This document shows, in pieces, positions 7,683 through 59,092 of a stretch of DNA of 64,000 nt. This stretch comes from Cordylochernes scorpioides (lineage: Eukaryota; Arthropoda; Arachnida; Pseudoscorpiones; Chernetidae), in assembly GCA_030710605.1 (NCBI GenBank), contig CP092870.1, positions 15,848,684-15,912,683 of the forward strand, in the 5' to 3' direction. A program made the translations under genes and the position numbers. How positions within the stretch are numbered: position 1 is the stretch's first letter; every line of letters starts with the position of its first letter. The notes beneath the pieces are model-generated. The model searched no databases, was not told the origin of the DNA, and saw nothing but the letters and a program-made list of their open reading frames with translations.

Positions 7683-8508
7683 GGCACAACCCTCTGGACC
7701 TTCCTCTTCCGCAAGAGGGCGGAGAGGATCACCATCCGAAACCTCCCCTTCTTTGTGGAAGACGCCACCATCATCGAGGCGCTGCGGCCATATGGGCGCG
7801 TGACATCCATCGCCTCCATGCAGTTCAAGGTGGGTGAATACACCTACGCAGACGGTCGCCGCGAGGCCTACGTCCTCCTCCACGGCGGCGTAAAAATAGA
7901 GAGACTGCCCACCCGCCTGGTCGTTAAGACCAAAGAGGACACCCTGCCGGCCTTCCTGACCTTTGGCATTAAGTGCTCGAAGTGTAAAGAGGTAGGGTCA
8001 CCGCAGGGCAAAGTGCCCAGTGCTCGTCAATTAGACCACTGGGCCCAGGCAAGCAACACCCTCCTCCCCTACCGATGCCAAGTCACCCACCGCACCTCAG
8101 CAGCCCAGGCAGCCAGCACCTGGGCCTGCTGCACCAGCTCTCCCTACTCCACCTGGGGAGGTGCCAATCAAAGCTCCCGCGGCCCCCCCTCTCCACGGCG
8201 CCTCAGCCTGCTGGACCAGCATCCCCTACTCAACCAGCCATCGTAGCTTCTCCTCCTTATCTTTCTGCCCCGAGGACCCTCGTGAGCGAGATGGCTCCTA
8301 CAAACATCGAGATGATGGACGAGGAGAATCGGGAAGAGGAGAGAACCGATTTGTCCTCATGGCGCCGAATGCCGAAGCTCACAGCCGCCCAGAGGCCCGC
8401 TTTGATCAGGCTGATCCGCGCCTTAATGTACTTGCGACCTGGCTCCAACTCCTCCATCTACAAGCGGCTCGTGAAGGCCCGGGAAAACTTGAAGAAAAGG
8501 TTCAATGA
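7683..8508 (+). pseudogene. Tx1 gag (ORF1) fragment, copy A
   Basis: Begins inside the conserved gag segment (KRAERITIRNLPFFVEDATI) and runs through the GRREAYVLLHGGVK block to the zinc-knuckle region, where CSKCKEVGSP replaces the CCHC and is frameshifted. It continues through a proline-rich linker to a C-terminal helical region before ORF2. Several frameshifts separate these parts. Homologous to residues of the intact copy at 18405-19736. It cannot encode a working nucleic-acid-binding gag. Confidence 0.8.
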
Positions 8509-10465
8509 ACTTCCGCGTCGCCACCATCAACGCGCGTGGGCTCGCCACTCGTGAGAGGAGCCTGGTACTCTGCCATCTTCTGAAACAACATCAAGTGGAC
8601 ATCGCGTTCGTCCAGAAAACGAATATCTCCTACCTGGACCACGCCCAAGACCTCTGCCTCGGCTACGGTGCCGCAGTGACACCACCCGTAGCCATCTCGG
8701 GATCCGGACTCGCCTGCCTCTTCGGGCCAGGTATCGCCATTCTGCGTCAGCGTGTCCTGTGGCCGGGCCACATTACCTTGGCCATCTTCGATGTCCACGG
8801 ACAGGAGATGGCTTTTATCAATGTCCATCTTTCTCATAACTCTCACGAGCGGCTAGAGCAACTAGAGCTTATTGCGGTAACTGCCATCCAAGAAGAAGCC
8901 TGGGTTCTCGGCGACTTTAATATCAGGGAAGATAGGAAAATCTCTTCGGCCTCCATGGATGCCCTCACCTCTCTACAGGATCTGGCTACGCTGGTCGACG
9001 CAGCCACCCTGTTCGACGCCGCCCACCTGCCCACCAGGGTCGCTAGTCATGGCGAGCGCATTGAGAGCAACCGACTGGACAGAATCCTTGTTCCTGCGGG
9101 CTTCCTGGATCGTGTGAATAGCCACACGACAACCCACTATCATCTCTCCGATCACCGAGCCCTGCTGCTCCAGGTGGGTCCGCCCGCCCCCTCCCCCCAG
9201 CCTTGCATAGCCGCGCTGCTTCGCTTTGGCTGGTGCAAGATCACCTGGCTGGTTACATCAGGGACCTGGAGGAGAACATCAGAGACCTAGAAGATGTGGC
9301 GATATGGCAGAGATGGACGGGCATCAAGGCGAGACTGCTCGCCGAGGCAAGATCTCTCCACGTCTCACGCGCCGCGGTTGCTGATGACGGTTACGTCTCC
9401 CGGGCTCGAAGATACATTAAGGCGCAGCTGGAAGCCTCATCGGTTAAGGCTGAATACCCGACCTTGCCCAACTTCGTACGTGTGATGAATCCTCGCCGAC
9501 ATGCCATTATCATCAGGGACGACGACGGCCGCGTCATCGAAGGCCCCGAGCTGCGGCGAAAGGCCTTTGAGGTATTCCGGCCCCGCTTCGCCCGCGCAAC
9601 CTGTGATCCTGCGGAGGGCGCGGCTTTCATCAGAGGCACAACCACCTCCATCGAATTGGACGAGGACGACCCACTCCACTGGGCTGAAATCTCTGCGGCT
9701 GAGGTAGCCACCCCCATCAGACACCTCCCTCGCGGGAGAGCTCTCGGCTGGGACGGACTGCCCTGCGAACTCCTCGCTGCCTATGAGGAAATCTTCACGG
9801 ACGCCCTGAGCCATGTCTTCGCCGCTTCTCAGCTTCGCGGTGCCCTGCCTCCATCCATGCGGCGAAACGCAATATGCCTGATCCCCAAAGCCCGCAGCGG
9901 TCGCGGCTTGGATGGCTATAGGCCAATCTCGCTCCCGTCGGCAGACTACAGGGTGACATCCATCCTCCTCCGTCGCCTCAAGCCCCACCTACCAGCCTTG
10001 GTGCCGGAGTCCTAGACCTACGCCGTGCTCGGAAGGTCCCCCTTCTGGGACATCGCCCGGATAACTGATGCCGTCGAGGAGGCTACTGCTGGGGGCTCGC
10101 CTCTGGCCGTCGTGGGCGTCGACCTCGAGTCCGCCTTCGACTCCCTGGATCGCGGCTTCCTTCTATCCTTGATGGTGTCCCTGCGCCTTCCACCTGCCTT
10201 CGTGGTTTGGTCACTGCTCTTGTACGCCGGGGCGGACGCGACAATAAGGGCAGGTCAACATCAAACGGCTGCCATACATCTCCTCAATGGCCTGAGACAG
10301 GGCTGTGCCGTCAGTGCCGCCGCGCTCTTTAGCATCGCGACGGGGCCACTGCTATGTCGCCTGGAGATGATCCTCGGCGTGGGCAATGTCATCGCCTACG
10401 CAGACGACATCGCCCTTCTGGTCCATCGCGACGAGCAGTTCGTGGAAGTCCTCGAAGACGGCCTT
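8505..10465 (+). pseudogene. Tx1 ORF2 (EN-RT), copy A
   Basis: The ATG at 8505 overlaps the gag stop as ATGA. The APE endonuclease runs from NFRVATINARGL through VLGDFNI to SDHRALLL, but the catalytic QET is QKT (Lys codon 8616-8618). A one-base deletion near 9230 breaks the frame and a Gln-to-stop change lies at 10013-10015. The RT fingers and palm resume (GVDLESAFDSLDRGFLLSL, NGLRQGCAVSAA, AYADDIALL). Homology stops just past VLEDG at about 10460, so RT thumb and C-terminal domains are missing. Confidence 0.88.
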
Positions 10466-11491
10466 AAGGCGATAAATAAAGTGGTCGGAGGGGCCAGACA
10501 CATATTCCAGCTCACCAGGAAGAATGGACATGTCCTGGTGCGTCTGACAAGCAAGTCTCTAGTGGAAGGCCTCATTGAGGGGGCCTTGAAATCGAAGGCA
10601 CGATCCTTAGGACCTTTCCTTTCCGTAAAAGGTCGAGAAACTAACCATCGGGAATCTCCCTTTCTACCTGGAGGATGCCGTTATCATCGACGCCCTGCGG
10701 CCCTATGGGCGCGTTACGTCCATCGCCCCCTAACAACTCAAAGCTGGGGTATATGGCTACACAGACGACCGTCGTGATGCCGACATCAAAACTAAAGGCG
10801 ACACCTTGCCGTCGTTCCTGACCTTCGGAATAAGGTGCTATAAATGCAACAACCAGGGTCACCGCAGAGCCAACTGCCTAATGCTTGCTAGGACCACCGG
10901 CCCCAAGCAAGTATCATCACTCTCCCCCACAGATGTCCCATCACCGACCGCGCCTCAGCTGCCCAGCCAGCTAGCACCCGCGCCTTCTGCACCAGCACCC
11001 CCTGTTCCATCTGTGGAGGTACCAAGTAATGTTCCCGCGGCTCACACTTCGCCCTGTCGCTCCACCGCGCCTCAGCCTCCTGAACCAACGTCCGCTTCTC
11101 CCCATGAGGAGGGGAGTCAGCTCCAGCCGTAGTAGCCCCACCACTTTCCCTACCTGCCCTGGGAACTTATGAACTCCAGACCTCTCCTGAGCCTTTTGAG
11201 ACTTCTACCCTATGAAGAAGGAAAACGAGGATCAGCTAGACAAGATATTTGACCAGCTGAATGATTCATCTTTCCTGAGCCCCCTATATAAGAAGGGAAT
11301 GTTTTACAGGGATGACATCGTGTACGGGACTCTTTACCCCCCCTGATAGGGAGTTTCTACTCGAGGAACTCTCGTCTGAAAACAGGATAATTCTCTCCGA
11401 ATTCCTCAACATTGTCATCGAGCATGTTGGGGATAAGAAATCAAGAATTGGCAAGGGCTTGTCCACACTCAAGGCGGCCTGTAGCTCCTGA
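10466..11491 (+). pseudogene. Second gag-like segment fused behind RT, copy A
   Basis: Starts at KVVGGARHIFQLTRKNGH, homologous to the middle of gag (GPRGITQFNRMNGH in the intact copy). It continues through a frameshift to a preserved knuckle CYKCNNQGHRRANC (CX2CX4HX4C), a proline-rich linker, and a C-terminal helical segment (MKKENEDQLDKIFDQ) ending at TGA 11489-11491. It is diverged from the first gag half of the same element, so it is not a simple tandem duplication of it. Confidence 0.8.
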
Positions 11492-11624
11492 TAGGATCCA
11501 GATGTCCCTTCGAAGAGGGCTTCGTCTGGTGTAAATATTTTCTTTATTTTTTTCTAATTTCACCCAAACTCTCATTTTGCTGTTGACTAGATGTCAATAA
11601 ACTTATTTTAATTGTCAAATTGTC

Positions 11625-11680
11625 GCACCACTATACCACTCAGAATACACACCACTAAACCACTCACAACGCACACATAA
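11625..11680 (+). repeat. 25-bp minisatellite, short tract behind copy A
   Basis: About two degenerate units of the CCACTAAACCACTCACA repeat between the LINE 3' end and the shared flank. Confidence 0.8.
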
Positions 11681-12039
11681 TTTATATCATAGAGTTCTAT
11701 TTTTTATTTAAAATTTGGGGAAGCCATTTTACCTCTGGCGATCTGATCAACCCCTGACGTCATGAGTCCTGTCAAGACGACCAACAGTAGATATGCCTAA
11801 GACCAATCGCCAGCTCGGCTTAAAAAATGACCCATAGTCAAATCGTCATCGCTAAACCATGGCCTAGGTGGCATACCTATGGCCAGTTGTCGTGACAGGA
11901 CAAGTTTTCACCAGGAGGTAGTCAGACCCGAGGTTCATAGAGGCTTCCCCGGCGGGCGCTGGGCCGGCAATGGCAACAATCGGTCGTTTCTAGGAACTCT
12001 ATATATTCTATCTATCGAAGGATGAATCAATCCGTGTCA

Positions 12040-12226
12040 GATATATTCATTATGAATCTTGGATCAAACTTATTTATTGATATCTTCCCATATTTCGACG
12101 TTGTTGCCTCTGCTAGGGACATCCGCTACAAACACTATTCACTTGGAATTCTATCCACAGCCTCGGATTATTGGAAGAATAAATAGTTTTGATCCAAGAT
12201 ATAGGCGATCTCTTCCTAATTGATAT
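12040..12226 (+). other. Recurrent short coding-like segment in the flank
   Basis: Frameshifted relative of the open frame at 25509-25709. See that entry for description. Equivalent copies lie near 35870-36090, 45960-46170 and 59545-59755. Confidence 0.35.
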
Positions 12227-12540
12227 ATAAGAATGTAAAAATGAATAAACTGTAATGAAACATTATTTTGAATAATATAAAAATTGACTTGTTAATATAA
12301 TGCCTTTTTAGCGCAACCTGAAACTGAACTATTGAATGAAGATTTATTATAATTATGTATTTTATATTTATAATTGATAATATAATTTATGTATAATTTT
12401 AATGGGTACATTAACAAGGTTCTTTCTACGGAATTTTTATTCTTTGTTCAAAAATCACTTCATTAGGTACCGCTCAAAAAGAGCAACCTAATTTATGATA
12501 ATTGCAACAATAAATGTTAAGGTTATTCACATATTAAAAC

Positions 12541-12617
12541 AAAGTGTCCAATGCGGGATTTGATCCCGGTTAATGGCTGTCGGGAATCGAGGGTTTTAAC
12601 CCCTCGTCCACCGACTT
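12541..12617 (-). repeat. tRNA-like segment in the array flank
   Basis: Reverse-complement reading gives an A-box-like GTGGACGAGGGGTTAAAAC region and a B-box-like GGGATCAAATCCCGC. Diverged copies lie at 28038-28110, 36386-36461 and 47620-47692. Pairing of the acceptor stem is poor. Likely a tRNA-derived repeat carried by the duplicated unit. Confidence 0.45.
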
Positions 12618-13235
12618 CTTTCCTTCTGTTCTTTCTGCGGAACATTCACTCTAGCAGCAACATATAAAAATAAGAAAGATTAAAAGGGAACCTTCACTAT
12701 TTTCCATTAAAACTTTTAATCAAAATGTTATCAGTTTAACAAATAGGTGTATAGGTGAAGTTCAACATTAAAATATAGGCTATTGAGAGCCTAATCAAAT
12801 TAAACCAATACCTAATTTACATTTTTTGTGAAAGAAACATGAGAGATCTGGAATGAATTCTTCACTATAATTTGAAAATATAGCCAAAAATCTGATTAAC
12901 TTTATTGTTTTCATAAAGCCTGATGCTAATATTACTGCATATGTTTGTTAATAATGCATCCTAGGGAATTTTCATCCCAGGGATATTTCATCCAAGGAAA
13001 ATTCAAATTAACCAAGTACTAGAATAATTTACCTATTTCAGGTATTAGGGACGGTGAAATATTGCTGGATCATGTTTGATAGACAATAACAAAAGTCTTT
13101 CGAGAATCATTCACTCGAGCAGAACATTGGAAAAAAACAAATTTGTTTGGTCAAAAATAAGCTATTTTGATAATAAATAAATCCTTATGAGATAATAAAG
13201 ATGTATTTATAAATGTAATATATAATATTCATTTT

Positions 13236-14582
13236 ATGTGTCGCCATGCTGGCGAGGAGAATGCAAATTCTGCCGCGGCGGACGGAATTTTTGCCAATCC
13301 TTCTGCTAACGGCGCTGAAAAGACCGCAAAGAACTGGGCTGATAGAATGGAGGAGGTAGAGAAAAACAAGGATGGCTACACCGTGGTGAGGAATAAGAAG
13401 AGACGCCGTGACTCGGGGACATCTAACACCACAACGGCGCAGACCAGCAGCGCCGAAACAAGCGGAACTACCAGCGAAGCGCCACGAAAACGCAAGACTG
13501 GAACGCGGTCACCGCAGGCCCAGGAAATCAGGGTCACGCGAGCCCACATCGCGGACGCCAGGCCTCCTCCACCCAGGGTCAGTGCATGTACATCGAGCAC
13601 TGCCTGACTTCACTCACTACCAGTATATCCAGGCAATAAAGTGGTCGGCGGGGCCAAAAACATCACCCAACTGAACGAAATGAACAGCCACGCCCTGCTT
13701 AGCCTGACCACTAAGGCCCTTGAGGAGCGCCTCATCGATGGAGGCCTTGAAATCGAAGGCAAAACCCTCAGGACCTTCCCCTTCCGCAAGAGGGCGGAGA
13801 GGATCACCATCGGAAGCCTCCCCTTCTTTGTGGAAGACGCCACCATCATCGAGGCGCTGCGGACATATGGGCACGTGACCTCCATCGCCTCCATGCAGTT
13901 CAAGGTGGGTGAATACACCTACGCAGACCGTCGCCGCGAGGACTACGTCCTCCTCCACGGCAGCGTAAAAATGGAGAGACTGCCCACCCGCCTGGACGTT
14001 AAGACCAAAGAGGACACCCTGCTGGCCTTCCTGACCTTTGGCATTAAGTGCTCGAAGTGTAACAAGTAGGGTCACCGCAGGGCCAATTGCCCAGTGCTCG
14101 TCAATTAGACCACTGGCCCCAGGCAAGCAACACCCTCCTCCGCTACCGATGCCAAGTTACCCACCGCACCTCAGCAACCCAGGCAGCCAGCACCTGCGCC
14201 CGCTGCACCAGCACTCCCTACTCCACCTGGGGAGGTGCCAATCAAAGCTCCCACGGCCCCTCGCTCCACGGCGCCTCAGCCTGCTGGACCAGCATCCCCT
14301 ACTTAACCAGCCATCGTAGCCACTCCTCCTCTTCTTTCTGCCCCGAGGACCCTCGTGAGCGAGACGGCTCCTACAAACATCGAGATGATGGACGTGGAGA
14401 ATCGGGAAGAGGAGAGAACCGATTTGTCCTCATGACGCCGAATGCCGAAGCTCACAGCCGCCCAGAGGCCCGCTGTAATCAAGCTGATCCGCGCCTTAAT
14501 GAACTTGCGACCTGGCTCCAACTCCTTCATCTACAAGCGGCACTTGAAGGCCCAGAAAAAACTTGAAGAAAAGGTTCAATGA
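13236..14582 (+). pseudogene. Tx1 gag (ORF1), copy B
   Basis: Opens with the basic N-terminal part (NWADRMEEVEKNKDGYTVV, then KKRRRD), matching NWADSEMVEVEDNDGYTLV in the intact copy. The frame is lost at about 13600 and regained at about 13641 (ITQLNEMNSHALLSLTTK). A stop falls inside the zinc knuckle: CSKCNK followed by TAG at about 14067. The linker and C-terminal helix lie beyond. Both lesions recur in copy C, and the first in D and E. Confidence 0.85.
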
Positions 14583-16478
14583 ACTTCCGCGTCGCCACCA
14601 TCAACGCGCGTGGGCTCGCCACTCGGGGGAAGAGCCTGGTACTCTGCCATCTTCTGAAATAACATCAAGTGGACATCGCGTTCGTCCAGAAAACGAATAT
14701 CTCCTACCTGGACCACGCCCAAGACCTCTGCCTCGGCTACGGTGCCGCAGTGAGGCCACCTGTAGCCATCTCGGGATCCGGACTCGCCTGCATCTTCGGG
14801 CCAGGTATCGCCGTTCTGCGTCAGCGTGTCCTGTGGCCGGGTCACATCACCTTGGCCGTCTTCGATGTCCACGGACAGGAGATGGCTTTTATCAATGTCC
14901 ATCTTTCTCATAACTCTCACGAGCGGCTAGAGCAACTAGAGCTTATTGCGGTAACTGCCATCCAAGAGGAAGTCTGGGTCCTCGGCGACTCTAATATCAG
15001 GGAAGATAGGGAATTCTCTTCGTCCTCCATGGATTCCCTCACCTCTCTACAGGATCTGGCGACGCAGCCACCCTGTTCGACGCCGCCCACCTGCCCACCA
15101 GGGTCGCTAGTCACGGCGAGCGCATTGAGAGCAACCGACTGGACTGAATCCTAGTTCCCGCGGGCTTCCTGGATCGTGTGAACAGACACACGACAACCCA
15201 CTATCATCTCTCCGATCACCGAGCCCTGCTGCTCCAGGTTGATCCGCCCGCTCCCTCCTCCCAGCCTTGCATAGCCGCGCTGCTTCGCTCGGGGCTGGTG
15301 CAAGAACACCTGGCTGGCTACATCAGGGACCTGGAGGAGAACATCAGCGACCTAGAAGATGTGGCGATATGGGAGAGATGGACGGACATCAAGGCTGGAC
15401 TACTCGCCGAGCCAAGATCTCTCCACGTCTCACGCGCCGCAGCTGCTGATGACGGTTATGTCGCCCGGGCTCGGAGATACATTGCGGCGCAGCTGGAAGC
15501 ATCGTCGGTTAAGGCCGACTACCCGACCTTGCCTAACATCGCACGTGTGATGAATCCTCGCCGACATGCCATCATCATCAGGGACGACGACGGCCGCGTC
15601 ATCGAAGGCCCCGAGCTGCGGCGAAAGGCCTTTGAGGTCTTCCGGCCCCGCTTCGCCCGCGCAACCTGTGATCCGGCGGAAGGCGCGGCTTTCATCAGAA
15701 GCACAACGACCTCCATCGAATTGAACGAGGACGACCCACTCCACCGGGCTGAAATCTCTGCGGCTGAGGTAGCTACCGCCATCCACCGCCTCCCTCGCGG
15801 GAGAGCTCTCGGCTGGGACGGACTGCCTTGAAGCATGTCTTCGCCGCTTCTCAGCTTCGCGGTGCCCTGCCTCTATCCATGCGGCGAAACGCAATATGCC
15901 TGATCCCCAAAGCTCGCAGAAATCGCAGCTATAGGCCCGTCTCGCTCCCGTTGGCAGACTACAGGGTGGCATCCATCCTCCTCAGTCGCCTCAAGCCCCA
16001 CCTACCAGCCTTGGTGCCGGAGTCCCAGACCAACGCCGTGCCCGGAAGGTCCTCCTCCTGGAACATGGCCCGGATAACTGATGCCGTCGAGGAGGCTACT
16101 GCTGGCGGCTCGCCGCTGGCCGTCGTGGGCGTCGACCTCGAGTCCGCCTTCGACTCCCTGAATCGCGGCTTCCTTCTATCCTTGATGGTGTCCCTGCGCC
16201 TCCCACCGGCCTTCGTGGGTTGGACACTGCTCTTGTACGCCGGGGCGGACGCGACAATAAGGGCAGGTCAACATCAAACGGCTGCCATACATCTCCTCAA
16301 TGGCCTGAGACAGGGCTGTGCCGTCAGCGCAGCCGCGCTCTTCATCATCGCGACGGGGCCACTGCTACGTCGCCTGGATATGATTCTCGGCGTGGGCAAT
16401 GTCATTGCCTACGCAGACGACATCGCCCTTCTGGTCCATCGCGACGAGCAGTTCGTGTAAGTCCTCGAAGACGGCCTT
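14579..16478 (+). pseudogene. Tx1 ORF2 (EN-RT), copy B
   Basis: Starts at the ATGA overlap. A CAA-to-TAA stop (near 14660) and the catalytic QET-to-QKT change (Lys codon 14690-14692) lie early in the endonuclease. Later segments are 14669-15154, 15178-15831 and 15828-16460, separated by indels. RT motifs remain (SAFDSLNRGFLLSL, GLRQGCAVSAAALF, AYADDIALL). The frame stops at TAA straight after DEQFV, just before the fusion to the second gag-like part. Confidence 0.88.
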
Positions 16479-17552
16479 AAGGCGATAGATAAAGTGGTCG
16501 GAGTGACCAGACACATAATCCAGCTCACCAGGATGAATGGACATGTCCTGGTGGGTCTGACAAGTAAGTCTCTAGCGGAACGCCTCATTGACGGGGGCCT
16601 TGAAATCGAAGCCACGATCCTTAGGACCTCTACCTTCTGTAAAAGGTCGAGAAACTAACCATCGGAAATATCCTTTTCTACGTGGAGGATGCCGTCATCA
16701 TCGACGCCCTGCGGCCTTATGAGCGCGTTTCCTCCATCGCCCCCAAGAAACTCAAAGCTGGGGAGTATGGCAAACACTGATGCCCGTCGTGAGGCCTACA
16801 TCCACGAAAGCATAAAAATCTAGAGGCTGCCCACCCGCCTCGACATTAAAACTAAAGGCGACACCTTGCCGGCGTTCCTGACCTTCGGAATAAGGTTCTC
16901 CAAATGCAACAACCGGGGTCACCGCAAAGCCAACTGCCCAATGCTTGCTAGGCAGACAATCGGTCTCAAGCATGCATCACCACCCTCCCCCACTGATGTA
17001 TCTTCACCGACCACGCCTCAGCAGCCCAGACAGATAGCACCCGCGTCTTCTGCACCAGCACCCCCTGCTCCATCTGTGGAGGTGCCAAGTAATGGTTTCG
17101 CGGCTCACACTTCGCCCCGTCGCTCCACCGCGCCTCAGCCTCCTGAACCAACGTCCGCTTCTCCCCATGAGGAGGGGAGTCAGCTCCAGCCGTAGTAGCC
17201 CCACCACTTTCCCTACCTGCCCTGGGAACTTATGAGCTCCAGACCTCTTTTGAGCCTTTTGAGACTTCTACCCCCATGAAGAAGGAAAACGAGGATCCGC
17301 TAGACAAGATATTCGACCAACTGATTTATTCATCTTTTCTGAGCCCCTATATAAGAAGTAAATGTTTTACAGGGATGACATCGTGTACGGGACTCTATAC
17401 CGCCCGATAGTGAGTTTCTCCTCGAGCAACTCTCGCCTGGAAACAAGGTAATTCTCTCCGAATTTCTCAACATTGTCATCGAGCATGTTGGGGATAAGAA
17501 ATCAAGAATTGGCAAGGGCTTGTCCACACTCAAGGCGGCCTGTAGCTTCTGA
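16479..17552 (+). pseudogene. Second gag-like segment, copy B
   Basis: Begins KVVGVTRHIIQLTRMNGH and carries frameshifts, then CSKCNNRGHRKANC (an intact CX2CX4HX4C knuckle), a proline-rich linker, and a C-terminal segment from MKKENEDPLDKIFDQ to TGA 17550-17552. It is more diverged than the other copies. Confidence 0.78.
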
Positions 17553-17685
17553 TAGGATCCAGATGTCCCTTCGAAGAGGGCTTCGTCTGGTGTAAATATT
17601 TTCTTTATTTTTTTCTAATTTGACCCTAACTCTCATTTTGCTGTTGACTAGGTGTCAATAAACTTATTTTAATTGTCAAATTGTC

Positions 17686-17918: not shown

Positions 17919-18144
17919 TCGAGCGGCCACGCTTTTTTTAGCTCCGCCGTTTTTCACCTTTGGCAGGTGTAAAAATGCCGAAAGGTGTGTAGAAAGTGAT
18001 ACCGGCTGAAAGCCCTGAACGAGCTGCTCGTGAGCCTGAAAGGCTCAGCTCGAAACCTCAAACCGGTGCTGAGATATCAGCGAAAATTGCTTTACAGAAG
18101 AGTTCTTCTGAAGAAATTAAAGAAAATTCTAAACACTTGCAAAT
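17919..18144 (+). promoter_or_regulatory. 5' UTR and likely internal promoter of the intact Tx1 element
   Basis: Non-coding or N-terminal leader sequence absent from the chimeric copies. The first plausible start, ATG at 17975, is followed after five codons by TAG. The same frame then stays open from 17993 to about 18130, reading ESPERAAREPERLSSKPQTG. Either the leader is untranslated or the ORF1 N-terminus carries a nonsense change. Promoter role is inferred from position only. Confidence 0.4.
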
Positions 18145-41253: not shown

Positions 41254-41282
41254 TTAAGATTTTTTTTTTTGTATTCCCATAC

Positions 41283-42183: not shown

Positions 42184-42187
42184 AATG

Positions 42188-48076: not shown

Positions 48077-48174
48077 CTACAACAATACAACAATTAGAGA
48101 ATGTCACGAATTTGTACAACCATCAACAATCAGATCAGTCAAATCAAAAGACCGTTGACATGCCTCCCTTCTGC

Positions 48175-49470
48175 TTAAAAACAAAATCTTTGTGGTTTTC
48201 TTAATTCTCTTCCGAACCTTGAAAACCGGGGCCTTTCGGATGGTTCTGGTGAAATCCCAGCGGATGTAGTCGCTTTTTCCCTCTGGTTAATATTGGTCTC
48301 TTCACTCGACCGCTGTATCGGGGCTGTAGATGACTCTCCTATCGTTGGACTGTCGCAATGCAGATGTTGAGCTTCTGGGGAGCCGGTAATTGGTTCTAAA
48401 GATAACTGCCTTTTTTCGTTGACTCCATCTTTCGGCCTAATAAATTGTTGATTTCTTATTAACTTATTTCCTGATGGTGTTACGACTTCAAAGCTCTGAG
48501 GAGAATTAGCCTGCGCTGAAATCTTCACCGGTGTCCATGTCTCCCTTGGATGCATTTGACACCATGCATCCTCTCCTACATTGACCTTGGGATAGCTTTT
48601 ACTGTTTCTGTCATAATGCTCTTTCATTGAGCTCTGTCTTTTTCTTTTGGCATTCTCTATACTTCTCCAATTAGTTTGATAAGGTTTATATAGCGGTGTA
48701 ATTCTGGGGATTTGACATCGAAGGCTCCTCGATAAACATAGCTGTGCGGGTGAAGGTAGGTCATTTTTTGGTGTATTCCTATATGCCAGAATAGCCAGAT
48801 ATGGGTCGGACCCTTCATCTCTACATTTAATTAATTGATTTTTTATTGTTTGAATGTTTCTTTCGGCCAGACCATTAGATCTATGGACTTGAAAATAGCT
48901 GTTTTATACCCCATTTTATACAGAAGTCAGTCATAATTTCTGAGCGAAACGGTGGTCCATTGTCGGACATCATGGTTTCCGGAATCCCGAATCGTGCAAA
49001 TGTTTCTCTCAATTTATTTTTTACATTAATCGCCGTAGGTGGGTTTAATGCAAATACCTCCGGGTAGCCACTATATCTGTCGACCACTAACAAATGGGGC
49101 TTTGTCTTAATATAAAATATGTCCAATGATACTGTCTGCCATGGATAATCTGGAACTGGGAAAGGTTTTAACGGCTGCCGTATTTTCGATTTCTGATATT
49201 TTTGACAAATTTCACAATTTTTACTTTTTCAGCAATGTCGATGGACATTCGCGGCCAAAACAAAGATTCTCGCGCCAAACCCTGAATTGCAGATATCCCT
49301 TGGTGCGATTGGTGCAACAAATTGAGCATATTATTCCTTTGTGTCATCGGAATCACTATGGCCGATCCTATACATAATAGATCATTCCATAAATATAAAC
49401 GGTGTCTGAAATCGAAAAATGCTTTGGCATCTTCATCGACGTCTTTTTTTGCATATTGGCCACCCCTCAA
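48175..49470 (-). pseudogene. Gypsy integrase remnant
   Basis: Three frames cover the region. First comes a zinc-binding part with HQGISAIQGLARESLFWPRM (about 49250-49340). The core domain follows with VVDRYSGYPEVFAL and FGIPETMMSDNGPPFRSE, then a C-terminal tail (RPRFSRFGRELRKPQRF) ending at 48175. Catalytic Asp positions are visible in the core but the frames are separated by indels. Confidence 0.85.
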
Positions 49471-50266
49471 TCACATAATCAATCACTTTAACTAAAGCAG
49501 GATCCTCTCGGGTATCTTTCTGCAGCGTTGCCAGTTTTTCGTCCGATATATTAACACGTACCATCTTGACCATTCTTTTGTCCTCAAGAAAAGGCGTTGG
49601 TAGTTCGTCCATGGGGTGAGTATCCCTGGATAGGGTATCAGCCACAATCAAGTATTTTCCTGGTTTGTACTGCAATTTGAAGTCAAATGCTATAAGCTTC
49701 ATTACTAATCTTTGTAGACGCGGAGATATATCACTCAGCGGTTTTTTGACTAGAGGCAATAAAGGCTGGTGATCCGTCTGGACAACGAAAGTGTGTCCTG
49801 ATAATAGATATTCAAACTTTTTTCATCCATAATAAACACTCAGTAACTCCTTCTCAATCTGAGACTACTGTTTCTGCGAGTCGCTAAATGACGCGGATGC
49901 GAATGCTAGAGGTCGATCTTCCTGTAGCAGAGCAGCTCCCATTGCATCTTTGCTGGCGTCACATTGCAAGATCAACATCTTGCTTTTGTCAAAATGTGCC
50001 AATGAAGGAGCATTCCTAACACATTCCTTAATATGATCGAATTCCCCATCCTGTTTAGGCCCCCAATGCCAGACAACATTCTTTCTTAATATTCCTCTTA
50101 TATTGGATGTGGACGCCGTTAAATATGGAATGAATTTTCCTAAGTAATTATAAAGACCCATGATTCTTTGAAGTGACTTTTTATCCTCTGGCTTTTTAAA
50201 GGTAATTAATTTATCAATCTTATTTGGCTCTGGATCAATTCCATTTTGTGAAATCAAATGGCCCAA
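49433..50266 (-). pseudogene. Gypsy RT connection and RNase H remnant
   Basis: Contains the RT C-terminal GHLISQNGIDPEPNKIDKL and MGLYNYLGKFIPYL, then the RNase H start (LQCDASKDAMGAALLQEDR). A frame break follows, then the RNase H end (QRLVMKLIAFDFKLQYKPGK, VADTLSRD). Confidence 0.85.
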
Positions 50267-50301
50267 GAAACGAACCTTCGTTAGACATATTTGAGTCTTT
50301 G

Positions 50302-50748
50302 TTAAATCAAATTTGATATTTTTTCTTTTGCTTTTTCTAGAATTCCCTTTAATTTTTTATTGTGCTCTTGAATGGTATCCGCATATATCAGCAAATCGTC
50401 TACATATGTAATATTTTGAAAGCTATCCCTAAAGATATTCGTCATTTTCTCAACAAAAATTTGTGCAGATATTTTCAAACCAAATGGCAATCGATTATAT
50501 CTGAATTTACCAAATGGCGTGGTCATCACCAACAGATCTCTGCATTCCTTTGCAACCGGAATATGCCAATAGGCTGATTTCACGTCTAACACGGTATAAT
50601 ACTTAGATTTGGGTATCTCGTGCAATAGTTCAGCTGGAGCCGGAGTCTGGAAGTGTCTTCCCACAAGGGCCTCATTTAATTTACGAGGATCCAGGCATAT
50701 TCTGATTTGACCAGATTTTTTTTCACAACGACCATAGGATGAGACCAC
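50302..50748 (-). pseudogene. Gypsy reverse transcriptase core
   Basis: 148 codons: RICLDPRKLNEALVGRHF, TVLDVKSAYWHIPVA, MTTPFGKFRYNRLPFGLK, and the catalytic NITYVDDLLIYA. It is out of frame with the upstream gag-protease frame by an indel in an A run near 50715. Confidence 0.88.
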
Positions 50749-52151
50749 TCTGTTTCATGATATATTTTTGTAACGATTTCTTGCTTCACCATTTTTTCCA
50801 ATTCAGACTGAACTTCGGCTCCGAGGCTTGTTGGGATGCGCCTGGGAGGGGCATGCACAGGCGAATATTCAGGCTTTATGTAAATCTTACATTCCGAGTT
50901 GATTAATCCTACTCCATGAAACACTTCGTGGTATTGTTCGAGGATTTTTTGAGTTTCAGAACACAATTTCATTTCATCCGTGTTTATATGATTAATTCGC
51001 CTCAATATTTCAAGCTTCTCGCAAGTATCGCCCGTGATAAGTGTCTGCGCCTCTACATCGGCTACGATAAATTCAAACATTCCTTTCTTTTCACCATATT
51101 GGCATAGCACATTGCATTTGCCGACGATAGGCAATTCTGTATTTCCATATGCGAACGCCTTTAATGACGTGGGTCTGATTTCTGGTCTTGATGGCCATTG
51201 GTCTATTACTTTATGAGGAAGCACATTTATCTGTGCACCAGTGTCCAAATGTACCGTGGTCTTCTTTCCATTAATGATTATTACCGCGGACCACTTGTCC
51301 GACCCAACAGTCTTTACAACAACTTTATTTAGATTTATATTGTCACGGGATTCTTCAGCTTCACTTTCCGCTAAGAGATTTCTTATACGTTTTGTTCGGC
51401 AAACTACTGCGAAATGATTGGTTTTCCCGCATGCATTACACTTCTTCCCATAGGCTGGACACTTTCCATAATTGTGTCGTTGTCCACACCACTTACATGG
51501 TTCTATTATTCTTTCTCTTCTCGGGTTTATAACCCTTGGTCCTGCTTCTGCATTTTCCATTCGAATTCTATCTTTCACCCAATTACGTTTTTCAATTTTT
51601 TCAATCATTTTTTGCTCATTCAACGATGCTACTTGTGAGGATGTTGACTCGGAGATCATAGCTATCGAAATTGCCCTTGGTAGTGTCAACTGTGGATCTT
51701 CTAACAACTTTCTTTTCATTTCTCGGTCAAGTATTCCAATTATAAGACGATCCCTTATGAGAGATTCTGTTAAATTCTCGAATTCACATTCTTGTGCCAG
51801 ATGCTTTAATTCTGTGACAAATTCCATGATTCCTTGCCTTTCTTTTTTTACACAGGTAAAAAATGCATTTCTCCTTTGAATCGTATTTTTGAAGGGCTTA
51901 AAATGGTTCGTTAACATATCAAGCATTTCCTTTACATTTGGGTAAGTATCATTTTCACTTATGTGAAATGTCTTATATATCATAACTGTTTTCTCACCAA
52001 CAATATGCTTCAAAATTGCTCGCTGACGCACCAGCGGCATGCTTTCTAAATTTACCGCTATTGCAAAAATTTCAAACGACTCTCTCCAGGTCTCCCATTT
52101 TTTCTCGTTGCTGTATGGGATAAATTCTGCCGGCGGCTTGATTCCTTCCAT
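50676..52151 (-). pseudogene. Gypsy gag-protease
   Basis: About 490 codons from ATG 52151 (MEGIKPPAEFIPYSNEKKW). The capsid-like part runs to about residue 190. Two zinc knuckles follow: CKWCGQRHNYGKC and CNACGKTNHFAVVC. The protease has motif HLDTGAQINVLP (DTG). The frame continues to the start of RT (APPRRIPTSLGAEVQSELEK, TEWSHPMVVVKK) before shifting. Gag and protease are open, the rest is not. Confidence 0.88.
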
Positions 52152-52211
52152 TCTACTCACTGTTGAATTGATCTGTTTTAATTCGATACTTTTCTTGTCA
52201 TAATCCGGAAT

Positions 52212-52230
52212 TATCCTGTCGTCTGCGCCA
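52212..52230 (-). promoter_or_regulatory. Gypsy primer-binding site
   Basis: Minus-strand TGGCGCAGACGACAGGAT directly after the 5' LTR. It resembles the tRNA-Ser-type primer sites of several insect Gypsy elements (inference). Confidence 0.6.
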
Positions 52231-52450
52231 TGTTGTAATGGGTATGAGTTATCTGAACAAAACTCGCTACGAGTTACAAGTTGAACTGAATGTTTATTTA
52301 ATCTAGTAATCTCCTTTTATACACGATAGAGATAAGAAGGAAATAATTTACATAAGTTAAAAACAATTGACAAATGGCATGATTTTGCACATAGTCAATA
52401 ATAGATAATAAATATAATACATAACATATGTTATTTAACATATCACAACA
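52231..52450 (-). repeat. Gypsy 5' LTR
   Basis: 220 bp, TGTTGTAATGGG at the left and CATATCACAACA at the right on the plus strand. Confidence 0.93.
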
Positions 52451-52457
52451 TATACTA

Positions 52458-52940
52458 CTAGCGGACGTACCCGGCTTCGCCCGGGTTTTACCCGAGTAAA
52501 GGTTTGTCTAACGAATCTCTCGGTTAAGTGAATATTTTTCCCGGTCCCTTGAAAAATACTCGATACGTTGAATAAAATCAATATTAATTGGTTCCCTCGG
52601 TAATTGGAAGTTAAAGGAATAGTATCTTGCCTTGGAATTGTATCATTATTCTTGTCTCAAATGAATTGCCGTGTCATCCTGAATTTTGTCTTTCCTAATT
52701 TTCTACATTACAAAATCATCGTATCATCATGATAATATTTAGAGCAGATTGTTGAATTATAACAGATAAATTAGAATATTTATCTTGATTATTTTTAGGC
52801 GAAAAGTTATTTCAAAAAAGTTATTTGCTAGAAACCTTCCCAGTACTATAGTAAATAACTTCACAAAGTTTCATGGCGTTCCAATGAGTGGTTTGGTCAG
52901 GCATAAAGGACAGACAGACACACATGCATTCATATATATA
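52458..52940 (-). mobile_element. Helitron-like element at the conserved flank site
   Basis: Same family and same flank position as 28270 and 36625. Its right end meets the inverted-repeat element at 52941. Confidence 0.65.
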
Positions 52941-53338
52941 TTAAAAATAAGGCTTATTTTGGATTTAAATATGATTATTTATTTACCGATATTTCGATGG
53001 ATCAATCTTCCATCTTTTACGAGGTGTTTTGCAGTGAAGCACGCAGCAGATATATATACAGCAGATATATATACCCAGTTTAGAACCTCTTAGATGATTA
53101 TGCTATTTACATGGTTATTTTATTCCATTTTTAATCGGATATCTATTACTACTATTTGTATATTTGTTACACAGTTATTTCAATTTTCATGATATTTTAT
53201 TTGTTTAATTAATTCGATATCTCTTAATTTTCATTAGTCATTTACATATATCACTTAGTCATTTACATATATCACTTTTTCTTTAATTAATTTGATATCT
53301 CTTAATTTCAATAGTCATTTACATATATCACTTTTATT

Positions 53339-53731
53339 TTGATTATATTTACTCTGTTTAGATTGTATATATTAGATGGTTCATCGCCCAATAAGCTTAG
53401 ATGCGTCAAGTGTGCTGAAGAACACCATTCGAAGGATTGTCCAAGAAAGTCGAAACAGCTCCCACCAAAGTGCGCCAACTGCGGAGAGGCGCACACAGCC
53501 AATTACCGCGGATGCCCAAATTTTCCGAAGCCACAACAACAGCAGCTAAGGCCTCCCAGACAAAACTCCCCTAACACCATAACTCAAGCAAGCTCCACTA
53601 AAACAGAAGAAGCAATTGTTGAAAAACAAAAGGCAGGTTACGCTGAAACTGCAAAAAAGAAAACTACTCATTCTGACACCAGGGAACTGTGCGAAAAGTT
53701 ATTAGAAATTATCAAAACTTTCTTACAATGA
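53339..53731 (+). pseudogene. Jockey-type LINE ORF1, C-terminal fragment
   Basis: Open for about 115 meaningful codons. Zinc knuckles CVKCAEEHHSKDC and CANCGEAHTANYRGC are of the Jockey/CR1 gag type, followed by a Gln/Pro-rich tail and a stop at 53729-53731 that overlaps the next ATG (ATGA). The N-terminal gag is missing. Confidence 0.8.
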
Positions 53732-53990
53732 AAGGCAAATTACCTTTAAAAATCGTGTTCTGGAATTGCAACGGAATCAAACTCAAAAAAGAAGAATTCC
53801 TACAGTTGGTGACCTCAGCCACCGAATCCGACGACCTGGACCCAATGGCTAGCTGACAGCCAAACACCCAACAACTGCCCTCCTGTAAGGTTCGGGGGGG
53901 GGCCACTCCAGCATTACAACTCGCCATGTGTAAATAATCTGGACAAGGTGACTCGCGAGCTGTGCTCGAATGTAACACCTGCAAATTGAG
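53728..53990 (+). pseudogene. Jockey ORF2 start joined to 3' UTR
   Basis: MKGKLPLKIVFWNCNGIKLK is the opening of an APE endonuclease (LKIVFWNCNGI). After about 30 codons (near 53815) it passes into 3'-end sequence with no RT, ending in AATAAATAAATAA at 53994. Almost all of ORF2 has been deleted. Confidence 0.75.
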
Positions 53991-54188
53991 ATGAAATAAA
54001 TAAATAAATAAGCTTAGAAGACGTCTAGTGGCTCACCTGGGGCGCGCGACCTGCTGCGTGCTTCACTGCAAAACACCTCGTAAAAGATGGAAGATTGATC
54101 CATCGAAATATCGGTAAATAAATAATCATATTTAAATCCAAAATAAGCCTTATTTTTAAAATATAAATGTATTATGGATTGCTCTATA

Positions 54189-54195
<7 letters not shown>

Positions 54196-54246
<51 letters not shown>
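54196..54246. repeat. (AT)n microsatellite
   Basis: About 25 TA units at the boundary between the TIR element and the resumed array flank. Confidence 0.9.
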
Positions 54247-54248
<2 letters not shown>

Positions 54249-54703
54249 TTGAAAGCTTAATCAAACCAATACCTAATTTAAATTTTTGGTGAAATAAACA
54301 TGAGAGATCTGGAATGAATTCTTCACTATAATTTGAAAATAGAGCCAAAAATCAGATTAACTTAATTGTTTTCATAAAGCCTGATGCTAATATTACTGCA
54401 TATGTTTGTTGATAATGCATCCTGGAGAATTTCATCCCAGGGATATTTCATCCTAGAAAAATTCAAATTAACCAAGTACTAGACTGATTTAACTGTTTTA
54501 GGTATTAGTAATGATGAATTATTGCTGTATCATGTTTGATAGACAATAACAAAATTATTTCTAGGATCATTCACTCGAGCAGAACATTGGAAAAAAATCA
54601 AATTTGTTTGGCCATAAAACTATATTGATAATAAATAAATCCTTATGAGATAATAAATATGTATATTCAAATGTAATATAGAATATTTATTTTATGTCTT
54701 TTA
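54247..54703 (+). repeat. Shared array flank upstream of copy E
   Basis: Matches 30486-30948. The final bases and the LINE left end are replaced by TTTTATTCC, so copy E starts slightly inside gag. Confidence 0.88.
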
Positions 54704-54709
54704 TTCCAA

Positions 54710-56002
54710 GCCTTCTGCTAACGGCGCTGAAAAGACCGCAAAGAACTGGGCTGATAGAATGGAGGAGGTAGAGAAAAACGAGGACGGCTACACCGTGGTG
54801 AGGAATAAGAAGAGACGCCGTGACTCGGGGACATCTAAGACCACAACGGCGCAGACCAGCAGCGCCGGAACAAGCGGAACCACCAGCGAAGCGCCGCGAA
54901 AACGCAAGACTGGAACGCGGTCACCGCAGGCCCAGGAAATCAGGGCCACGCGAGCGCACATCGCGGACGCCAGGCCTCCTCCACCCAGGGGCAGTGCGTG
55001 TACCTCGAGCACTGCCTGACTTCACTCACTACCAGTATATCCAGGCAATAAAGTGGTGGACGGGGCCAAAAACATCACCCAACTGACCAGAATGAACAGC
55101 CACGCCCTGCTTGGCCTGACCACTATGGCCCTTGCGGAGCGCCTCATCGATGGAGGCCTTGAAATCGAAGGCACAACCCTCAGGACCTTCCCCTTCGGCA
55201 AGAGAGCGGAGAGGATCACCATCCGAAACCTCCCCTTCTTTGTGGAAGACGCCACCATCATCGAGGCGCTGCGGCCATATGGGCGCGTGACATCCATCGC
55301 CTCCATGCAGTTCAAGGTGGGTGAATACACCTACGCAGACGGCCGTCGCGAGGCCTACGTCCTCCTCCACGGCGGCGTAAAAATGGAGAGACTGCCCACC
55401 CGCCTGGACGTTAAGACCAAAGAGGACACCCTGCCGGCCTTCCTGACCTTCGACAATTAAGTGCTCGAAGTGTAACAAGTAGGGTCACCGCAGGGCCAAC
55501 TGCCCAGGGCTCGTCAATTAGACCACTGGCCCCAGGCAAGCAACACCCTCCTCCCCTACCGATGCCAAGTCACCCACCGCACCTCAGCAGCCTAGGCAGC
55601 CAGCACCTGGGCCCGCTGCACCAGCACTCCCTACTCCACCTGATAGGTGTCAATCAAAGCTCCCGCGCCCCCCCCCCCCCCTCTCCACGGCGCCTCAGCC
55701 TGCTGGACCAGCATCCCCTACTCAACCAGCCATCGTAGCCTCTCCTCCTTATCTTTCTGCCCCGAGCACCCTCGTGAGCGAGACGACTCCTACAAACATC
55801 GAGATGATGGACAAGGAGAATCGGGAAGAGGAGAGAACCGATTTGTCCTCATGGCGCCGAATGCCGAAGCTCACAGCCGCCCAGAGGCCCGCTTTGATCA
55901 GGCTGATCCGCTCCTTAATGAACTTGCGACCTGGCTCCAACTCCTCCATCTACAAGCGGCTCGTGAAGGCCCAGAAAAAAACTTGAAGAAAAGGTTCAAT
56001 GA
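54710..56002 (+). pseudogene. Tx1 gag (ORF1), copy E
   Basis: Starts at NWADRMEEVEKNEDGYTVV after a lost N-terminus. The shared frame loss is at about 55010. A long middle block follows (55053-55460, RITIRNLPFFVEDATIIEAL to GRREAYVLLHGGVKMERLP). The knuckle is broken (TTTCGACAATTAAGTGCTC adds a base, and TAG follows). Linker and C-terminal helix precede ATGA. Confidence 0.85.
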
Positions 56003-57714
56003 ACTTCCGCGTCGCCACCATCAACGCGCGTGGGCTCGCCACTCGTGAGAGGAGCCTGGTACTCTGCCATCTTCTGAAACAACATCAAGTGGACATCGCG
56101 TTCGTCCAGAAAACGAATATCTCCTACCTGGACCACGCCCAAGACCTCTGCCTCGGCTACGGTGCCGCAGTGACGCGATCCGTAGCCATCTCGGGATCCG
56201 GACACGCCTGCCTCTTCGGGCCAGGTATCGCCATTCTGCGTCAGCGTGTCCTGGGGCCGGGTCACATTACCTTGGCCGTCTCCGTTGTCCACGGACAGGA
56301 GATGGCTTTTATCAATGTCCATCTTTCTCATAACCCTCACGAGCGGCTAGAGAAACTAGAGCTTATTGCGGTAACTGCCATCCAAGAGGAAGCCTGGGTC
56401 CTCGGCGACTTTAATATCAGAGAAGATAGGAAAATCTCTTCGGACTCCCTGGATGCCCTTACCTCTCTACAGGATCTGGCTACGCTGGTGGACGCAGCCA
56501 CCCTATTCGACGCCGCCCACCTGCCCACCAGGGTCGCTAGTCACGGCGAGCGCATTGAGAGCAACCGACTGGACAGAATCCTAGTTCCTGCGGGCTTCCT
56601 GGATCGTGTGAATAGCCACACGACAACCCACTATCATCTCTCCGATCACCGAGCCCTGCTGCTCCAGCCTTGCATAGCCGCGCTGCTTCGCTCGGGGCTG
56701 GAGCAAAAACACCTGGCTGGCTACATCAGGGACCTAGAGGAGAACATCAGCGACCTAGAAGATGTGGCGATATGGGAGAGATGGACGGGCATCAAGGCGA
56801 GACTGCTCGCCGAGGCAAGATCTCTCCACGTCTCACGCGCCGCAGTTGCTGATGATGGTTACGTCGCCCGGGCTCGGAGATACATTGCGGCGCAGCTGGA
56901 AGCCTCATCGGTTAAGGCCGACTACCCGACCTTGCCTAACATCGTACGTGTGATGAATTCTCGCCGACAAGCCATTATCATCAGGGACGACGACGGCCGC
57001 TTCATCGAAGGCCCCGAGCTGCGGCAAAAGGCCTTTGAGGTCTTCCGGCCCCGCTTCGCCCGCGCAACCTGTGATCCGGCGGAGGGCGCGGCTTTCATCA
57101 GAGGTACAACCACCTCCATCGAATTGGACGAGGACGACCCACTCCACCGGACTGATGTCTCTGCGGCTGAGGTAGCCATCGCCATCCGCCACCTCCCTCG
57201 CGGGAGAGCTCCCGGCTGGGACGGACTGCCCTGCGAACTCCTCGCCACCTATGAGGAAATCTTCACGGACGCCCTGAGCCATGTCTTCGCCGCTTCTCAG
57301 CTTCGCGGTGCCCTGCCTCCATCCATGCGGCGAAACGCAATATGCCTAATCCCCAAAGCCCGCAGCAGTCGCGGCTTGGATGGCTATAGGCCCATCTCGC
57401 TCCCGTCGGTAGACTACAGGGTGGCATCCATCCTCCTCCGTCGCTACAAGCCCCACCTACCAGCCTTGGTGCCGGAGTCCCAGACCTACGCCGTGCTCGG
57501 AAGGTCCCCCTCCTGGAACATTTCCCGGATAACTGATGCCGTCGAAGCGGCTATTGCTGGGGGCTCGCCGCTGGCCGTCGTGGGCGTCGACCTCGAGACA
57601 GCCTTCGACTCCCTGGATCGCGGCTTCCTTCTATCCTTGATGCTGTCCCTGCGCCTCCCACCGGCCTTCGTGGGTTGGACATGCTCTTGTACGCCGGGGC
57701 GGACGCGACAATAA
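55999..57714 (+). pseudogene. Tx1 EN-RT, copy E, open for 571 codons
   Basis: Complete APE endonuclease and the front of RT in one frame. The catalytic position is Lys (QKT, codon 56110-56112) as in the other chimeric copies. WVLGDFNI and SDHRALLL are present, and RT motifs run to GVDLETAFDSLDRGFLLSL. A one-base deletion at about 57680 (GACATGCTC where sisters have GACACTGCTC) shifts the frame. Confidence 0.9.
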
Positions 57715-58112
57715 GGGCAGGTCAACATCAAACGGCTGCCATACATCTCCTCAATGGCCTGAGACAGGGCTGTAGCGTTAGCGCCGCCGCGCTCTTCAGC
57801 ATCGCGACGGGGCGACTGCTACGTCGCCTGGAGATGATCCTCGGCGTGGGCAATGCCATCGCCTACGCAGACGACATCGCCCATCTGGTCCATCGCGACG
57901 AGCGGTTCGTGGAAGTCCTCGAAGACGGCCTTAAGGCGATAGATAAAGAGGTCGGAGGGGCCAGACACATATTCCAGCTCACCAGGAAGAATGGACATGT
58001 CCTGGTGCGTCTGACAAGCAAGTCTCTAGCGGAAAGCCTCATTGACGGGGGCCTTGAAATCGAAGGCACGATCCTTAGGACCTTTCCCTTCCGTAAAAGG
58101 TCGAGAAACTAA
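57675..58112 (+). pseudogene. RT palm fused in frame to a second gag-like segment, copy E
   Basis: One open frame runs through GLRQGCSVSAAALF and AYADDIAHL of RT, across the join at about 57933, and into gag-like EVGGARHIFQLTRKNGHV and GGLEIEGTILRTFPFRKR. It is the clearest view of the RT-gag fusion. Thumb, C-terminal CCHC and N-terminal half of the second gag are all missing. Confidence 0.88.
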
Positions 58113-58959
58113 CCATCGGAAATCTCCCTTTCTACCTGGAGGATGCCGTCATCATCGACGCCCTGCGACTTTATGGGCGCGTTACGTCCATCGCCCCCTA
58201 GCAACTCAAAGCTGGGGTATATGGCTACACAGACGACCGTCGTGATGCCGACATCAAAACTAAAGGCGACACCGTGCCGTCGTTCCTGACCTTCGGAATA
58301 AGGTGCTCTAAATGCAACAACCAGGGTCACCGCAGAGCCAACTGCCTAATGCTTGCTAGGACCACCGGCCCCAAGCAAGTATCATCACCCTCCCCCACAG
58401 ATGTCCCATCACCGACGGCGCCTCAGCTGCCCAGCCAGCTAGCACCCGCGCCTTCTGCACCAGCACCCCCTGTTCCATCTGTGGAGGTACCAAGTAATGT
58501 TCCCGCGGCTCACACTTCGCCCCGTCGCTCCACCGCGCCTTAGCCTGCTGAACCAACGACCGCTTCTCCCCATGAGGAGGGGAGTCAGCTCCAGCAGTAG
58601 TAGCCCCTCCACTTTCACTACCTGCCCTGGGAATTTATGAACTCCAGACCTCTCCTGAGCCTTTTGAGACTCTTACCCTATGAAGAAGGAAAACGAGGAT
58701 CAGCTAGAAAAGATATTTGACCAAAAGATTTATTTATCTTTCCTGAGCCCCCTATATAAGAAGGGAATGTTTTACCGGGATGACATCGTGTACGGGACTC
58801 TTTACCCCCCCTGATAGGGAGTTTCTCCTCGAGCAACTCTTGCCTGGAAACAAGGTAATTCTCTCCGAATTTCTCAACATTGTCATCGAGCATGTTGGGG
58901 ATAAGAAATCAAGAATTGGCAAGGGCTTGTCCACACTCAAGGCGGCCTGTAGCTCCTGA
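58113..58959 (+). pseudogene. Second gag-like segment continued, copy E
   Basis: Knuckle CSKCNNQGHRRANC intact (58274-58543 frame), then proline-rich linker and the frameshifted C-terminal MKKENEDQLEKIFDQ segment ending at TGA 58957-58959. Confidence 0.78.
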
Positions 58960-59092
58960 TAGGGTCCAGAAGTCCCTTGGAAGAGGGCTTCGTCTGATGT
59001 AAATATTTTCTTTATTTTTTTCTAATTTTACCCAAACTCTCATTTTGCTGTTGGCTGGGTGTCAATAAACTTATTTTTATTGTCAAATTGTC

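Follow-up and report, generated by a model that had tools for sequence, protein, structure and literature searches.

A dead six-unit tandem array of fused LINE pieces and its dispersed gag-only source family in the pseudoscorpion Cordylochernes scorpioides

Results

Two LINE lineages share one join in six copies

The window analyzed here is a 64,000-nucleotide stretch of the pseudoscorpion Cordylochernes scorpioides (contig CP092870.1, hereafter C8, positions 15848684-15912683), taken from a 2.62-Gb, 24-contig assembly that was also used for all genome searches. It contains five copies (A-E) of a fusion of two long interspersed nuclear element (LINE) lineages, in which a first gag (gag1), an endonuclease (EN) and a cut reverse transcriptase (RT) are followed by part of a second gag (gag2) and a 3' untranslated region (3'UTR). 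An initial annotation had described these copies as a LINE family with a new architecture. In this study, the exact join was found six times, in a single array and with founder lesions in both gags, which does not fit such a family.

The five joins that the initial annotation had reported do exist and match. Based on the junction alignment, they lie at 10461/10462 in copy A, 16475 in B, 34235 in C, 44372 in D and 57929 in E, and the 20 letters at the join are identical in these copies and in a sixth one (copy 6), located just right of the window at C8:15919104. RT homology to element F, an intact LINE within unit B, and to its relatives ends at approximately 10442-10450, just after the YADD motif. 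The next dozen letters resemble F, and from 10462 on, the letters are those of gag2. The cut RT keeps YADD and is devoid of the approximately 490 residues present in F behind it. Gag1 and gag2 share about 66-71% DNA identity, and their positions are parted by a fully supported split in a gag tree of 30 sequences (gag1 of A and D was excluded, as were L033 and L043; the bootstrap had not settled), as had been proposed for a fusion rather than a duplication.

To count the join, we performed a pattern search of the 2.6-Gb genome. The exact 20-letter join occurs at six places, all in the C8 array, and no exact join was found outside it; 21 further matches carry two or three mismatches, and the reversed-pattern control gave 32 matches. 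Similarly, a 241-base query over the join, with 40 matches scored of 2289 first-look candidates, gave six full-length matches, all at C8:15.859-15.919 Mb and corresponding to A-E and copy 6. The other 34 of the 40 cover the gag2 side alone, 27 of them from query base 103 (equivalent to 10462) and seven from bases 104-122. The whole-genome search that the initial annotation had called for thus returned a single join in six copies.

In the protein database, P0066 was the sole match passing for the join region among 410 length-limited candidates. This 962-aa gene model overlaps copy E with 100% identical stretches and extends through the dead fusion into 63288-63998, a transposase frame by the database's own Pfam labels. 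It is probably an annotation artefact and not evidence of expression.

The copies are units of one tandem array

Copies A-E are not dispersed insertions but units of one head-to-tail array of six. The A-to-B period is 6,075 bp, and the spacer at 11677-13240 recurs, whole or in part, in every interval from B to copy 6 (B-C, C-D, D-E, and E-copy 6), as well as 3' of copy 6. These shared spacers are contiguous except where later insertions interrupt them. With all pairs computed (gag1 without D), pairwise identity is 88.9-97.9% in the spacer parts and 91.6-96.7% in the element parts; that is, the spacers are about as diverged as the elements. Copy 6 leaves unit homology at unit position 13234, and gag1 of the other copies begins at 13241; therefore, the amplified segment extended from inside gag1 to that point. 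The array lies at 15.86 Mb of the 104-Mb contig C8, i.e., in its interior. In other words, the locus is a tandem array derived from transposable element pieces, with homologous spacers between head-to-tail units.

The founder was broken before it was multiplied

The gag1 zinc knuckle contains a TAG in all five copies that have the region (A, B, C, E, and copy 6, compared with F open reading frame 1 (ORF1)). The corresponding position is a normal codon in El1, an uncut element on contig C3 that is described below. Moreover, one 1-nt deletion is common to gag2 of all six copies, 174 nt (58 codons) past the join, relative to the open frame of the gag-only locus L036. This deletion is absent from El2 of the C3 locus, L037, L039, L041, and L044, the sole non-array loci compared. 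Copy A has a further 1-nt deletion in gag2, earlier than the shared one. No lesion common to all six copies was found in the EN-RT part, which is open for 571 aa in copy E. Because the gag lesions are common to the copies, the founder was dead in both gags before amplification; since it was already dead and the units are in tandem, the join was multiplied by tandem copying and not by retrotransposition. Collectively, these results indicate that the fusion has a single origin and was already broken when tandem copying multiplied it. The chimera itself most likely does nothing.

These lesions also bear on the coding capacity ascribed to the copies earlier. The fusion reads open in frame across the join in A and E, as stated, but it cannot reach the gag2 knuckle because of the 1-nt deletion in all six copies. 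Within the first 620 nt of gag2, the knuckle CSKCNNQGHRRANC, previously regarded as intact, is exact in E and copy 6; it reads CYKC in A, carries a stop in C and D, and was not found in B. Nor does every copy present the order gag-EN-RT-gag. Copy D keeps approximately 400 bp of gag1 and jumps into EN at 42723/42724 (42320-42724 corresponds to unit 13257-13661, and 42724 then to unit 8789), so that most of gag1 and the start of EN are lost, while in A the beginning of gag1 is missing and later insertions divide B.

The gag2 half derives from a dispersed gag-only family

A free-standing source of gag2, which the initial annotation had suggested looking for, is present in the genome: a dispersed gag-only LINE derivative of approximately 1.8 kb with its own 3'UTR, located for the most part in CA-rich repeats. 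The second half does end in a LINE-type 3'UTR. We fetched 19 of 34 dispersed matches as 8-kb stretches (loci L032-L050). Their layout is gag, its own C-terminal part, and then the 3'UTR, with a 3'UTR match behind gag in 14 of the 19; ORF2 directly behind gag was observed in none of the 19 (the L033 stretch ends inside gag). An ORF2 end fragment lies 1.7 kb further on in L034, behind a second gag, and an antisense ORF2 fragment lies 3 kb behind gag in L044. Eleven of the 19 loci had both ends scored, and these are 1747-2094 bp long, eight of them 1777-1827 bp.

The 5' 260 nt (four loci) and the 3' 60 nt (three loci and copy A) of the gag-only elements resemble F and El1-type ends, and the scores exceeded all 300 shuffles in 20 of 20 comparisons. 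An earlier percent-identity test of the shared ends, in which gaps were too cheap, gave no separation from shuffles. Furthermore, most flanks are CA-rich: 15 of the 16 scored 5' flanks and 9 of the 12 scored 3' flanks reach at least the 95th percentile of the background. L036 retains a 403-codon open frame, the protein matches of which all belong to C. scorpioides (37 of 37, among 7992 candidates scored). The dN/dS values against L036 are 0.55-0.75 (11 loci), compared with 0.53-0.84 for the decayed array copies (EN-RT, three pairs), with no clear difference.

Element F and the host repeat R

Element F is intact, with ORF1 at 18405-19736 (443 aa) and ORF2 at 19733-23152 (1139 aa). The latter contains an apurinic/apyrimidinic (AP)-type endonuclease (PF03372, 1.8e-08), and Pfam matches Exo_endo_phos and RVT_1. 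The nearest solved structure is LINE-1 ORF2p (1.3e-33), ahead of R2 (7.4e-16), and the named relatives of F ORF2 are C. scorpioides proteins with 42-92% identity. Tandem Repeats Finder (TRF) places 25-bp repeats on both sides of F (17685-17918 and 23255-25150), and the CA scores of its flanks are 0.52 and 0.55 against a threshold of 0.28. Because F sits in the repeats of unit B only, it probably inserted after the array had formed. The stretch behind F holds approximately 76 copies of the CA-rich 25-bp repeat, 96% matching; by TRF, nine copies lie before F and about two to four in units A, C, D, and E.

These repeats are part of a dispersed host repeat, R, which comprises the 25-bp minisatellite and the spacer up to approximately 13134. 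The genome was searched for R twice, with 1166 and 1229 first-look candidates, of which 40 were scored per search. In one of these searches, most R matches outside the array end at query 352-354, which corresponds to approximately 13134. L052 (681-3090) and L053 hold R and the minisatellite with no match to F. F and the C3 pair El1 and El2 lie in front of R 25-bp repeats in the same orientation. Likewise, L056 and L057, two of the four El1 relatives fetched, run from ORF2 through the LINE 3' end and the 25-bp repeats into R, again in the same orientation. Collectively, the R minisatellite is a landing site for several LINEs.

Uncut stacks of both element types

At five of the 19 gag-only loci (L032, L034, L038, L039, and L045), the 3' part of an ORF2 ends 0.2-0.6 kb upstream of the gag-only element; two of them, L034 and L038, sit on the same contig as close sisters. 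At C3:161.17 Mb (L051 and L032), the same two subfamilies as in the array are uncut, in order, and in R. There, El1 extends from the 5'UTR through the ORF2 end and the 3'UTR into 25-bp repeats, with an internal EN-RT gap and lesions of its own. It is followed by the 25-bp repeats, the gag-only El2 with its own 5' end, and then 25-bp repeats and R. The points joined in the array lie 2012 bp apart at this locus, and C3 El2 is the best non-array match for the gag2 start among the 40 scored.

Features of the units and inserted elements

Table 1. Array units and element F, in window positions
Feature	Position	Strand	Basis
Unit A gag1, 5' part missing	7682..8504	+	blastn to units B, C, E and F ORF1; knuckle TAG
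Unit A EN and RT cut after YADD	8505..10461	+	8369-10442 with 77% DNA identity to F
Unit A gag2, own C-terminal part and 3'UTR, gag-only family	10462..11624	+	Genome matches, loci L032-L050
Unit A 25-bp CA-rich minisatellite of R	11625..11676	+	TRF; also in L052, L053
Unit A 3' part of dispersed host repeat R	11677..13134	+	Genome searches; contiguous in L052 1609-3090
Array-specific flank and tandem junction	13135..13240	.	Unit leaves host DNA at ~13234; gag1 from 13241
Unit B gag1, EN, cut RT, gag2, 3'UTR; join 16475	13241..17684	+	blastn, junction alignment, shared lesions
Element F, insertion in unit B 25-bp repeats	17919..23254	+	ORFs; Pfam Exo_endo_phos, RVT_1; flanking 25-bp repeats
Unit B continued: R and spacer, other insertions inside	25151..30945	+	Alignment to 11626-13797
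Unit C gag1, EN, cut RT, gag2, 3'UTR; join 34235	30950..35412	+	Alignment, shared lesions
Unit C spacer: 25-bp repeats, R, then LTR element 37398-42183	35413..42319	+	TRF, alignment, Pfam
Unit D N-terminal part of gag1 joined by deletion to EN, then cut RT, gag2, 3'UTR; join 44372	42320..45538	+	
Unit D spacer with 25-bp repeats and R, broken up by other repeats, among them an LTR element	45539..54692	+	
Unit E gag1, EN, cut RT, gag2, 3'UTR; join 57929	54700..59091	+	EN-RT open 571 aa
Unit E 25-bp repeats and R, truncated by another element	59092..60046	+	TRF, alignment

In unit A, Pfam RVT_1 matches at 1.3e-11 within 10025-10774. The pieces of unit B that align to 11626-13797 are 25107-26001, 28001-28264, and 30499-31506, and those of the unit D spacer that align to the shared spacer are 46246-46311, 47441-47850, and 54242-55212.

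Several other elements lie in and beside the spacers. The long terminal repeat (LTR) element at 37398-42183, between C and D, has two repeats of approximately 886 bp that are 99.3% identical and one 979-aa frame with DUF1759, DUF1758, and DUF5641; no RT or integrase match was found with Pfam, and we take it to be a Pao/BEL element. A minus-strand element at 47846-52451 holds a gag-protease frame (50676-52160) and has 221-bp direct repeats (96%). Another minus-strand element, at 60030-62897, contains an RT between 147-bp direct repeats (96%) and is presumably Penelope-like from its look. Finally, 46309-46892 is a 293-bp tandem pair with one tRNA-Gly(GCC)-like gene per copy, and a tRNA-Thr-like gene lies at 30132-30207.

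Discussion

Based on the shared join, the tandem organization, the free-standing gag-only source, the lesions that predate amplification, and the uncut stack elsewhere, the dead array of six copies probably arose by stacking, deletion, and tandem amplification. An ORF2-bearing LINE, El1, a relative of the intact F, would have inserted in the CA-rich 25-bp minisatellite of R, and a gag-only, non-autonomous LINE, El2, would have inserted directly behind it, in the same orientation and minisatellite. A deletion of approximately 2 kb may then have removed the 3' half of the El1 RT with the El1 3' end and the 5' end of El2, bringing the middle of gag2 up against the RT immediately past YADD. The segment from the interior of El1 gag1 to approximately 100 bp past R would have been amplified to six units, which would then have decayed and taken further insertions. 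The tandem amplification is almost certain, perhaps through unequal exchange. For the step before it, a deletion is probable and a template switch less so; because such stacks are seen uncut, the loss of sequence within one is the simplest route.

Several observations weigh against this scheme. None of the units retains any of the lost 2 kb, and the final 2-17 nt ahead of the join are ambiguous: either route could have left them as filler. Two of the four El1 relatives fetched, L055 and L058, have no R in the stretch fetched, and a gag-only element lies behind none of the four. Among RT matches outside the array, C3 El1 comes fifth (88%, compared with 91% for the best one), and C3 El2 is not grouped with the array gag2 in the tree. 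The C3 locus had first been accepted as a certain sister of the founder for its shared flanks, and was then downgraded because R is dispersed and four further El1 relatives score at least as well; it may not be the founder's direct sister. In the array itself, copy A starts at 7682 inside gag1, and the scheme does not account for this left edge. Unit pairs rank differently by identity depending on whether spacer or element parts are compared. Among the gag2 copies, that of unit B has diverged most (91.6-92.2%) and does not cluster with the remaining five in the tree, although it has the same join and the same 1-nt deletion. These differing rankings and the position of unit B gag2 make some exchange between units likely.

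The join could also have formed by template switching, as the initial annotation had proposed. An RT copying a gag-only RNA from its 3' end would jump within gag to an ORF2-bearing RNA, and the chimeric cDNA would insert once in R, with later tandem amplification of the locus. The same orientation of both parts, the LINE 3' end at the outer end, and the very short junction fit such a jump, and 5' chimeras of LINE-1 with other RNAs through template switching or RNA ligation are described (PMC13174262). However, this route requires a rare event, whereas uncut stacks of both element types already exist, and no second join of this type was found by the pattern search or in the protein database. 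Template switching is therefore a possible origin, but an unlikely one, and the case for a deletion within a stack is stronger. A mobile family with the order gag-EN-cut RT-gag would account for the one join shared by the five window copies, for the frame that stays open across it in A and E, and for the open EN-RT in E. Nevertheless, all six exact joins found in this assembly lie in one tandem array with shared spacers, both gags carry founder lesions, and the RT is without everything that F has behind YADD; we rejected this explanation as highly improbable. Alternatively, a 5'-truncated gag-only element could have inserted into the RT of an ORF2-bearing element, and gag2 does start inside its own gag and end in a 3'UTR. 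In that case, the remaining ORF2 would be expected past the gag2 3' end, where the host repeat R lies instead. Because blastn found no ORF2 remnant behind gag2 in the units, this nested insertion was also rejected and is scarcely credible. The preferred reading is thus a deletion within a stack followed by tandem amplification.

Satellites and tandem arrays derived from transposable elements have been reviewed, and growth by unequal crossover or repair between copies has been proposed (PMC9659126). The C8 array resembles the systems covered there in its head-to-tail units holding LINE pieces, but its unit is approximately 6 kb, combines two fused LINE lineages with a host repeat, and occurs only six times. 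The array is ordinary; the gag-only family is the part worth following up, and a modest find.

Gag-only LINE derivatives are best known from mammalian HAL1 and fly HeT-A. In Drosophila, HeT-A is a gag-only non-LTR element that forms head-to-tail stacks beside the RT-bearing TART and TAHRE. The gag-only family described here likewise lies beside RT-bearing partners; however, no telomeric habit was seen, and the scored gag-only and array sites are spread inside contigs. HAL1 ('half-L1') encodes only ORF1p and arose several times in mammals, according to PMC5753468. Similar to HAL1, the source of gag2 is a LINE derivative with ORF1 and no ORF2, with its own 3' end, partner-like ends, and dispersed copies of standard length. 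In contrast to HAL1 as described there, the host here is an arthropod, the target is CA-rich, and the elements lie directly behind ORF2-bearing relatives at five of the 19 loci.

Certain Tx1 and R1 families use microsatellites as targets. The elements studied here share with the Tx1/R1 LINEs an AP-type endonuclease and insertion into repeats, and the likeness is one of endonuclease and target. A summary of target-specific lineages, including the Tx1 and R1 clades, lists microsatellites among the known targets (PMC4640811). Here, target-specific insertion is seen at the gag-only loci and for F, and the target is CA-rich in general, including the 25-bp minisatellite.

Among the top papers listed, our search of the open-access literature on pseudoscorpion elements and on gag-only or chimeric LINEs found nothing on this system, which is no proof of absence. 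We tentatively suggest that C. scorpioides may harbor a two-part arachnid system, in which an ORF2-bearing LINE and a gag-only partner have the same ends, CA-rich targets, and mutual stacking, although the chances are somewhat against it. If so, its stacks would break and fuse and could seed large tandem arrays, and the gag-only carriers would represent a HAL1/HeT-A-like strategy that arose independently outside mammals and flies. An apparent new architecture read from sequence can stem from one deletion and tandem copying. Moreover, the habit of the gag-only family of adjoining ORF2-bearing relatives would make trans-mobilization and stacking testable beyond mammals and flies.

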